Assembly (NCBI RefSeq): GCF_005860795.2
Contig: NZ_CP058350.1
Span: forward strand, 2,944,501 to 3,008,500
DNA from: Peteryoungia desertarenae
Lineage (GTDB): Bacteria; Pseudomonadota; Alphaproteobacteria; Rhizobiales; Rhizobiaceae
DNA: 64,000 nucleotides
Reading direction: 5' to 3'
In this document: one piece after another, positions 7,195-10,012 of the stretch
How positions within the stretch are numbered: the stretch's first letter is position 1
How the letters are laid out: each line of letters begins with the position of its first letter
Notes under the pieces: model-generated
Databases searched by the model: none
What the model saw: the letters and a program-made list of their open reading frames with translations, nothing else
Told to the model about the DNA's origin: nothing
Translations under genes and position numbers: made by a program

Positions 7195-7950
7195 TCAGGC
7201 AGCCTGCCCCGTGATGTCGGCATAGCCGTTCGCTTCCAGATCAAGCGCCAGCGACTTGTCGCCGGACTTGATGATCTGGCCCTTGTAAAGGACGTGAACG
7301 GTGTCCGGCACGATGTAGTCGAGCAGGCGCTGATAGTGGGTGATGACAACAGTTGCGCGGTCGGGACGCTTCAGCGCGTTCACGCCATCGGCGACGATCT
7401 TGAGAGCGTCGATATCGAGGCCGCTGTCGGTTTCGTCGAGGATGCAGAGCTTCGGCTCGAGCAGCGCCATCTGCAGGATTTCGGCGCGCTTCTTCTCACC
7501 GCCGGAGAAGCCGACATTGAGCGGACGCTTGAGCATGTCCGGGTTGATCTTCAGCTCGGCAGCGGCTTCCTTGACGCGGCGCATGAAGTCCGGCGTCGTC
7601 AGCTCGTCCTCGCCACGCGCCTTGCGCTGCGAGTTCATCGCGACCTTGAGGAACTGCATGGTGGCGACGCCCGGGATTTCGACCGGGTACTGGAAGGCGA
7701 GGAAGATGCCCTTGGCGGCGCGCTCGGCCGGGTCGAGTTCCAGAATGCTCTCGCCGTTGTAGAGGATATCGCCTTCGGTAACTTCATAGTCTTCGCGGCC
7801 CGACAGGATGTAGGACAGCGTCGACTTACCCGAACCGTTCGGGCCCATGATGGCGGCGACTTCGCCGGCCTTCACGGTGAGGTTCAGGCCGCGGATGATT
7901 TCGGTGCCGTCTTCGGCGATGCGGGCATGGAGATTTCTGATTTCAAGCAT
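7195..7950 (-). CDS. sufC: SUF system ABC-type ATPase SufC
   Basis: SufC is the soluble ABC ATPase that drives conformational change of the SufBCD scaffold. In the 251-residue product the Walker A motif G-P-N-G-S-G-K-S is at residues 36-43, the signature reads F-S-G-G-E-K-K-R, and Walker B with the D-E-T-D-S-G-L-D motif follows. The ATG at 7950 is preceded by CAGGAAG. Upstream, 81 bases away, lies the left repeat of the GIY-YIG unit that separates it from sufB. Confidence 0.96.
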   Translation of the reverse strand: MLEIRNLHARIAEDGTEIIRGLNLTVKAGEVAAIMGPNGSGKSTLSYILSGREDYEVTEGDILYNGESILELDPAERAAKGIFLAFQYPVEIPGVATMQFLKVAMNSQRKARGEDELTTPDFMRRVKEAAAELKINPDMLKRPLNVGFSGGEKKRAEILQMALLEPKLCILDETDSGLDIDALKIVADGVNALKRPDRATVVITHYQRLLDYIVPDTVHVLYKGQIIKSGDKSLALDLEANGYADITGQAA

Positions 7951-8031
7951 GTCTGTCTTCCTGTCCATCGGGCGGTTCAAGGGCCGCCTGTCGTTTCCTG
8001 TTGCGCCTGGTGAAGGCACGTCTTTTCATGT

Positions 8032-8068
8032 TCGTCATCCTCGGGCTTGTCCCGAGGATCCACTGCCG
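8032..8068. repeat. Left 37-bp inverted repeat of the GIY-YIG unit
   Basis: This copy matches the reverse complement of 8429-8465 at 36 of 37 positions, differing only at 8061. Each copy contains its own perfect palindrome: here ATCCTCGGG (8037-8045), loop CTTGT, CCCGAGGAT (8051-8059). In RNA it would form a stable 9-bp hairpin. Confidence 0.95.
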
Positions 8069-8070
8069 TT

Positions 8071-8412
8071 TCAGTTATAGTCCGACCATTGCGGTGAACT
8101 CGGATGCGGTGAGTAGACGTTTTCGATCTCATAGATCCGGTCATAGAGATCGAGCCATGTCGGGTTTAGCCCTTCGATCAGCTTGATCTTCCAGTCCCGC
8201 AGATAGCGCTTCATAGACTTCTCTCGTCGGATCGCGAGGACGATGTTCGGATGCTGCTCGAACCACACCAAAAGCTTCGCATTGTATCTGGACGTAAAAC
8301 CTTCCCTCACTTCATTTCGGTGTTCCCATATGCGCCCCTGAAGGTCGCTGGTCACCCCGGTGTAAATCACGCCACGTGGCTTGTCCGACATCATGTAAAC
8401 GAAGCCGGACAT
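8071..8412 (-). CDS. Small GIY-YIG domain nuclease-like protein
   Basis: The 113-residue product is a stand-alone GIY-YIG domain. The first motif is G-F-V-Y-M-M and the second is V-I-Y-T-G-V-T, followed by L-x-x-R-I-W-E-H, and a C-terminal K-I-x-L-I-E-G-L-N-P-T-W-L-D-L-Y segment typical of the short family often misnamed UvrC-like. It has no DNA-binding extension. GIY-YIG domains cut DNA using a metal ion, but whether this one is active is unknown. It lies precisely between two inverted repeats within the suf operon. A GAGGC-like site precedes the ATG. Confidence 0.88.
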   Translation of the reverse strand: MSGFVYMMSDKPRGVIYTGVTSDLQGRIWEHRNEVREGFTSRYNAKLLVWFEQHPNIVLAIRREKSMKRYLRDWKIKLIEGLNPTWLDLYDRIYEIENVYSPHPSSPQWSDYN

Positions 8413-8428
8413 CGCGCATCAGCCTCGC

Positions 8429-8465
8429 CGGCAGTAGATCCTCGGGACAAGCCCGAGGATGACGA
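8429..8465. repeat. Right 37-bp inverted repeat of the GIY-YIG unit
   Basis: Inverted partner of 8032-8068. The inner palindrome is ATCCTCGGG (8438-8446), loop ACAAG, CCCGAGGAT (8452-8460). It ends 27 bases from the sufB stop codon, so a sufB transcript would carry this hairpin just after the gene. Confidence 0.95.
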
Positions 8466-8492: not shown

Positions 8493-9962
<1,470 letters not shown>

Positions 9963-10012
9963 GGTCGTTCTCCAATCTTGCCGGGCCAAATTCCGGCAGC
10001 TTGTTAACGTTG

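Follow-up and report, generated by a model that had tools for sequence, protein, structure and literature searches.

The window, a 64,000-nt stretch of the Peteryoungia desertarenae genome (contig NZ_CP058350.1), contained a unit at positions 8032 to 8465 with the structure REP/GIY-YIG/REP, located between sufB and sufC. The GIY-YIG gene, sufB, and sufC are all encoded in the same direction, on the minus strand. The features, in window coordinates, were as follows.

7195 to 7950, minus strand: sufC, flanking gene (ORF 7195 to 8019, start read as 7950)
8032 to 8068, plus strand: left CGTC-REP, an arm of the inverted repeat, with exact copies elsewhere in the genome (single-stranded DNA fold, z = -3.85); composed of a TCGTC tag, a 9-bp stem, a 5-nt loop, and a CCA tail, with the tag outward, towards sufC
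8071 to 8412, minus strand: GIY-YIG nuclease gene, 113 codons, PF01541
8429 to 8465, minus strand: right CGTC-REP, an arm of the inverted repeat (single-stranded DNA fold, z = -4.92); inverted relative to the left copy, with the CGTC tag outward, towards sufB, and a CTA tail
8493 to 9989, minus strand: sufB, flanking gene (ORF; tblastn in loci L013 to L027)

A preliminary description of this DNA had placed a GIY-YIG gene of 113 codons between two 37-nt inverted repeats and had the whole separating sufB from sufC; the predicted ORFs, the PF01541 match, and the repeat search agreed with the first point, and the flanking ORFs agreed with the second. The arms (37 nt each, 97% complementary, spaced 360 nt apart) bracket the gene as described, although not exactly, with 2 nt between gene and arm on one side and 16 nt on the other. 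Similarly, the perfect 9-bp palindrome attributed to each repeat corresponded to a 9-bp stem that is interrupted by a 5-nt loop (TCGTC-ATCCTCGGG-CTTGT-CCCGAGGAT-tail). The hairpin pattern, allowing up to 3 mismatches, had 2 matches in the 64-kb window versus 0.05 expected. A 434-nt transcript of the unit had a strong predicted fold (z = -7.77), mainly because both arms pair together. Searches of the unit returned no Rfam match at the gathering score and no PADLOC match. All 60 genomes of the window's genus matched the sufC protein.

The protein was assigned to the GIY-YIG superfamily based on a Pfam match to PF01541 above the cut-off (E = 4.4e-11; 43.4 bits, cut-off 22.6) and on the presence of the catalytic residues; Y6, Y17, R27, H31, and E64 were unchanged across the rows of 52 relatives. 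The catalytic residues are thus kept, and nuclease activity is predicted. PF01541 was the only Pfam match at E values up to 1, with no Y1 HUH transposase domain, and no NCBIfam model scored above its own cut-off for the window protein. DNA is hydrolyzed by GIY-YIG enzymes, which are not known to have strand-transfer activity. The median dN/dS was 0.09 (13 genes compared in 78 pairs, with undefined values omitted), which suggests that the gene is under purifying selection. The AlphaFold2 model had a mean pLDDT of 91; Foldseek with the predicted structure returned no match at an E value of 0.001 or better, and Slx1 and 1zg2 ranked first in a fold comparison. The only solved relative found by sequence was 1zg2 (BH0048; E = 2.9e-5), for which we know of no function. 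Like the stand-alone prokaryotic GIY-YIG proteins (UPF0213/Slx1-like; BH0048, 1zg2), the window protein has a single domain, but unlike stand-alone 1zg2 it is tied to a REP partner. Public records name the family only as GIY-YIG nuclease or, misleadingly, as excinuclease ABC subunit C.

The repeats of the unit fit the CGTC-tagged REPs surveyed by Di Nocera et al. in 2013. In the portion of that survey available (PMC3733652), these elements are defined by an unpaired CGTC (or TGTC, CCTC) at one end, an 8- to 9-bp stem with an AT start, a 4- to 5-nt loop, and a short unpaired tail, mostly CCA; inverted pairs also occur, and the elements are known from all orders of Alphaproteobacteria, from Neisseria (where CGTC-1 REPs are dRS3), and from Rickettsia and Wolbachia. 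The tag, the AT-start 9-bp stem, the 5-nt loop, and the inverted pairing are common to those families and the unit, in which TCGTC precedes the stem (ATCCTCGGG, loop CTTGT) in both copies and the tails are CCA on one copy and CTA on the other, with mostly CTR in the sufBC subtype. The same portion of the survey reports no enzyme partner, whereas the unit has a GIY-YIG gene: the CGTC units are described as lacking a dedicated transposase, with no such gene between them, the mover was left open, and neither the string "GIY" nor a GIY-YIG partner is mentioned in that text. The repeats of the unit were also dispersed. Six exact copies, including the two of the unit, and 12 sites with no more than 3 mismatches, one of them probably due to chance, occurred in its own genome, so the repeat also occurs outside the unit; the genome has one GIY-YIG gene of the sufBC kind. 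Four other sites consisted of gene-free inverted pairs, with hairpins 31 to 65 nt apart and tags outside, and the layout of these pairs is, at the sequence level, that of the unit minus the gene. The remaining sites comprised one single REP and a locus (L011) resembling a chance match.

The preliminary description had presented the unit as an insertion in the suf operon, but its distribution contradicted a fresh event. The unit was found at sufB-sufC in 15 of the 60 genomes of the window's genus (one of these copies is truncated and another has an internal stop) and in 12 of 13 named subtype loci, two of the 13 being also among the 15; named carriers of the subtype include Rhizobium, Neorhizobium, Pararhizobium, and Pannonibacter. 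Across 27 subtype loci (two with the same gene, one outside sufBC, and with hairpins placed by best pattern match), the hairpins were on average 98% and 93% identical, compared to 42 to 51% for neighboring stretches of 20 to 25 nt and 53% for third codon positions, and both hairpins were retained in 26 of the 27. By its distribution, the unit at sufBC is a long-standing occupant of the site and not a recent arrival, and it looks sedentary. Selection, or homogenization against the dispersed copies, probably maintains both hairpins with the gene. The preliminary description had also proposed, as candidate roles, that the nuclease recognizes or processes the hairpin and that the hairpins may tune sufB/sufC message levels. 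A host function, in which the nuclease would resolve or trim REP hairpins (as DNA or RNA) or regulate the operon and the hairpins would be control sites, is consistent with the purifying selection on the gene (dN/dS, 0.09), with hairpins that have stayed 93 to 98% identical at one site despite long divergence, and with the strong fold of the 434-nt transcript (z = -7.77). This explanation is nevertheless considered quite unlikely, given that the sufBC subtype is patchy within the genus (15 of 60), that an Rfam match is absent, and that the fixed-site presence/absence and in-place inversion found at the loci described below look element-like.

Inspection of sufB-sufC junctions for an empty site, a check proposed initially, yielded no clean example, as junction turnover was too high; cleaner sites occurred at other loci. 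Among 50 sufB-sufC loci (a set with 20 loci picked as unit-free; five further carriers, L022 to L026, came from a separate comparison), 9 had the gene, 1 had a piece of it, 14 had a gap of 68 to 74 bp, 6 retained one REP but no gene, and others had small ORFs. The sufC-side REP was kept with no GIY-YIG gene in loci L180, L194, L196, L202, L205, and L244, mostly behind a small coiled-coil-like ORF. In relatives, the sufB-sufC junction also held small-ORF cassettes (L179 and L196). A stretch of approximately 30 nt from the 3' end of sufB was duplicated in L179, as though the cassette restored the end of the gene, with a fainter echo of this duplication in L196.

At three other loci, the variable sequence is a discrete segment bounded on both sides by its REPs; no recent event between near-identical strains and no target-site duplication was seen. 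Between murC and murB in Bradyrhizobium, 29 loci were comparable among the 30 nearest; 14 had a gap of 2 to 5 bp, 5 had a unit of 406 to 412 bp, 1 had a single REP, 2 had remnants, and 7 had other repeat arrays, and the GIY-YIG gene was confined to the five unit-bearing loci. At the junction of fnrL and a response regulator gene on Sphingobium plasmids, eight aligned sequences included four with the unit (one of the four genes carrying a 1-bp deletion), two with a single fused REP, and two that were REP free. In the fused REP, the tag and arm on the left come from the first REP of the unit, and the loop, arm, and tag that follow come from the second; one of the two fused copies has altered stem bases. 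Two genomes of different species (G014 and G037) had the unit at one site in opposite orientations with collinear flanks, and the unit was absent from all 27 comparable loci of 28 others. Recombination or slippage between repeats could yield both the Sphingobium single REP and the G014/G037 inversion without an enzyme. A plasmid search for close empty sites using Rhizobium loci returned no usable pair. The array at murC-murB in L372, L375, L376, L386, L387, L399, and L400 was composed of CCCTCCCCC..GGGGGAGGG hairpins; as it fills the same gap, the gap receives several repeat families.

A profile built from nine relatives had matches in 123 of 289 genomes sampled from the class and in 137 of 299 from a phylum sample; these samples overlap, and the matches include weak ones to other GIY-YIG families. 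Loci were taken as best-scoring matches with no random draw: 60 of the 100 strong matches listed entered the locus set, and the named set comprised the best 80 of 584 loci from public genomes with names. Short flanks led to the removal of 4 of 117 loci from the first set and 2 of 80 from the named set, and three genes were common to both sets. Hairpins were called within a 200-bp window (stem of at least 7 with one mismatch, loop of 3 to 6), and pairs were called as matched when 6 of 7 arm positions agreed; one earlier hairpin scan used a stem of 8 and a loop of 3 to 7. In the first set (113 strong loci, 200-bp flanks), 77 loci had an upstream hairpin, 88 had a downstream hairpin, and 54 had a stem-matched pair. 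Matched pairs occurred in approximately 0.4% of 3,516 pseudo-intervals within these loci, and swapping downstream hairpins among loci produced a mean of 8.1 and a maximum of 15 matched pairs versus the 54 observed. In the named set, 51 of 78 loci had a matched pair, versus 14 of 3,081 pseudo-intervals. Members with matched pairs in the named set included Rhizobium, Sphingomonas, Pleomorphomonas, Lysobacteraceae, Nevskia, Sideroxydans, and a deltaproteobacterial bin; four Massilia loci had a hairpin on one side only, and a Neisseria gonorrhoeae record had the gene between ATTCCCGC hairpins.

Across both sets, 105 of the 191 GIY-YIG loci had a matched hairpin pair within 200 bp. One or more GTC-tagged hairpins were present at 145 of the 191, versus 455 of 4,086 pseudo-intervals (11%), and 46 loci had none within 200 bp. 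Exactly one GTC tag was carried by 187 of 210 matched hairpins versus 143 of 714 distant hairpins. Both tags were outward in 58 of the 105 matched pairs; other arrangements accounted for 14, 14, and 6, and 13 pairs were untagged or half-tagged. Because REPs are common in intergenic DNA, any small accessory gene might become flanked by hitch-hiking, and the presence of GTC-tagged hairpins within 200 bp of 11% of pseudo-intervals (455 of 4,086) is in keeping with such a background. Loci of ParE (PF05016), which are small, patchy toxin genes and the sole other family compared (30 best-scoring loci from 114 genomes, none cut short), nevertheless had no matched pairs (0 of 30, versus 105 of 191; Fisher's exact test, P = 5e-10) and a tagged hairpin in only 4 of 30. 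This result, together with an agreement between paired hairpins well in excess of that obtained by swapping, makes hitch-hiking very improbable. The one-gene, two-hairpin layout resembling RAYT/REP that was noted initially is real and widespread (105 of 191 loci; ParE, 0 of 30), and the co-occurrence of GIY-YIG gene and repeat, which had been proposed as a check, lay far above the ParE and pseudo-interval controls, with gene and repeat covarying. Weak GIY-YIG matches (16 loci) were also tried as a negative control; these were unfit as a clean control since they had four matched pairs with a different palindrome, and ParE was used instead.

Stems varied among genomes and among paralogues. Three different stems were found across four genes with matched pairs in G603 (5 of 8 genes examined) and across three such genes in G204 (10 of 11 examined). 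Protein identity was modestly correlated with stem similarity across 73 dereplicated loci (rho = 0.139; 2,000 permutations, mean 0.001, standard deviation 0.051, maximum 0.154). The correlation appears to be carried by close pairs, as the same stem was shared by 84% of 25 pairs at 70 to 85% identity versus 8% of 1,165 pairs at 40 to 50%. REP loop length (five or four bases) appears to follow the protein tree, with 12 changes versus a mean of 22.5 after shuffling (0 of 500 as low), on a tree built from few columns and with many unresolved forks. Two GIY-YIG types in the window's genus had the same stem with a different loop and tail: the sufBC type mostly had CTTGT with CTR and the other type CTTGA with CCA, with few exceptions. 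This difference is only suggestive of specificity, because most of the REPs adjoin the genes and have the same descent.

In the window's genus, genomes with the gene (presence set at E = 1e-20) had a median of 14 REPs versus 9.5 in those without (32 and 28 genomes; P = 0.002, a soft value because related genomes are not independent). In Bradyrhizobium, medians were 40 and 32 with and without a close gene (16 and 64 genomes; P = 0.33), and a looser split gave P = 0.12 (31 and 49 genomes). REP copy number was thus linked weakly to the gene in the window's genus and not in Bradyrhizobium, which counts against a simple model. Two REP-rich genomes, G656 (135 REP matches) and G081 (36), had no GIY-YIG match; REPs outlasting their enzyme are described for TnpA-REP systems too in the available text of PMC6006769. 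Gene-free, REP-rich genomes would also be expected if REPs spread otherwise and a selfish, free-standing GIY-YIG nuclease cut them and was copied in by repair, so that the gene ended up between REPs. The Sphingobium single REP can be read as the pre-insertion target of such a homing-like parasite, and GIY-YIG is a classic homing fold according to the accessible part of PMC1564403. Homing endonucleases such as I-TevI have in common with the window protein the catalytic fold and a possible selfish spread, but the unit has no intron, its protein has no added DNA-binding domain (113 amino acids, with the lone GIY-YIG domain as the only Pfam domain predicted), and its partner is a multicopy palindrome. 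Moreover, the gene-free REP pairs in the window's own genome share the loop and outward tags of the unit and thus fit unit derivatives at least as well. A homing-like origin is considered unlikely.

The reading preferred here, held with slightly better than even confidence, is that the unit is REPtron-like: a stand-alone GIY-YIG nuclease with two CGTC-REP hairpins that suit it and a putative mobilizing role. In REPtrons (RAYT/TnpA-REP), as in the unit, one small nuclease gene has flanking REPs, the REPs are also dispersed gene free, often as inverted pairs, as are the CGTC-REPs here, and the REP type is gene specific, a pattern with a similar counterpart in the GIY-YIG/REP units. The enzyme of a REPtron is a Y1 HUH transposase and its tag is GTAG, whereas the unit has a GIY-YIG fold and a CGTC tag; of the REPtron hallmarks, the REP-flanked gene with dispersed REPs was present, and the Y1 HUH gene and GTAG tag were absent. 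The layout is already known from REPtrons, and the enzyme fold and REP superfamily appear to be new to it, as far as was found. A full-text literature search assessed on titles and abstract openings, with most subscription papers and bioRxiv outside its scope, found nothing linking GIY-YIG to REPs; the accessible text of PMC9465073 contains both terms on an unrelated subject, and the available main text of a 2025 REP survey (PMC12306157) contains none of GIY, nuclease, or transposase.

Comparison of genomes revealed the association of gene and hairpin and a specificity pattern; at fixed sites, units were present or absent, inverted in place, or reduced to a single REP, and both the gene and its hairpins are under constraint. 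Because the same gene-hairpin pairing recurs in many bacteria, the GIY-YIG enzyme is the foremost candidate for the so far missing enzyme behind the handling or spread of CGTC-REP hairpins. Most likely, the nuclease recognizes its own type of REP, as a hairpin or cruciform, through stem, loop, and CGTC/tail bases and would nick close to the base of the hairpin. Replication and repair by the host might subsequently remove, invert, or duplicate the unit, and the same host processes might act likewise on gene-free REP pairs across the genome. We infer the binding, the cutting, and the role of cutting as the driver of dispersal. Points against this reading are the absence of a tagged hairpin at 46 of 191 loci, the Bradyrhizobium counts, the REP-rich gene-free genomes, the apparently sedentary sufBC copy, the hydrolytic chemistry of GIY-YIG enzymes, and the possible origin of inverted and single-REP forms by ordinary recombination or replication slippage. 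A broader proposal, plausible but held at somewhat less than even confidence, is that GIY-YIG/CGTC-REP units are a separate minimal mobile-element class convergent with RAYT/REP, in which the hydrolytic nuclease would read a stem-loop-tag code in the unit's terminal hairpins and spread the unit and gene-free pairs via host repair. If true, two unrelated nuclease folds converged on one arrangement of one gene and two hairpins, and a common protein family so far labeled only as GIY-YIG nuclease would gain a role. Palindromes of other kinds may be served by further GIY-YIG subfamilies (Br-REP1 in Bradyrhizobium and the GCCCTTGC palindrome in the window's genus), and much of the enzyme-less intergenic palindromic DNA of Proteobacteria could then belong to the GIY-YIG/REP class. 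Position, covariation, and presence/absence tie a small nuclease to CGTC REPs, and the question of the mover becomes testable with one protein and one hairpin.

Additional GIY-YIG loci were observed. A second, distant subfamily in the window's genus (L161 to L168) was flanked by the palindrome TGAGGT-GCCCTTGC..GCAAGGGC-CTCGAA or variants, with a matched pair within 260 bp in 4 of 8 loci and at least one palindrome in 7 of 8. A GIY-YIG paralogue in L226 (G536:C22:99703-101981) was located between hairpins containing Br-REP1 (CCGGAATCTCGAGATTCCGG), a Bradyrhizobium REP with no linked enzyme described in the accessible part of PMC5082802. On plasmid p1 of Planktothrix agardhii (L360), a GIY-YIG relative without flanking REPs had a type IIL restriction-modification gene on one side and DISARM drmA on the other. 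On a plasmid of Rhizobium sp. CIAT894 (L363), a unit with ATCCCAGGG REPs adjoined an IS4-family transposase gene.
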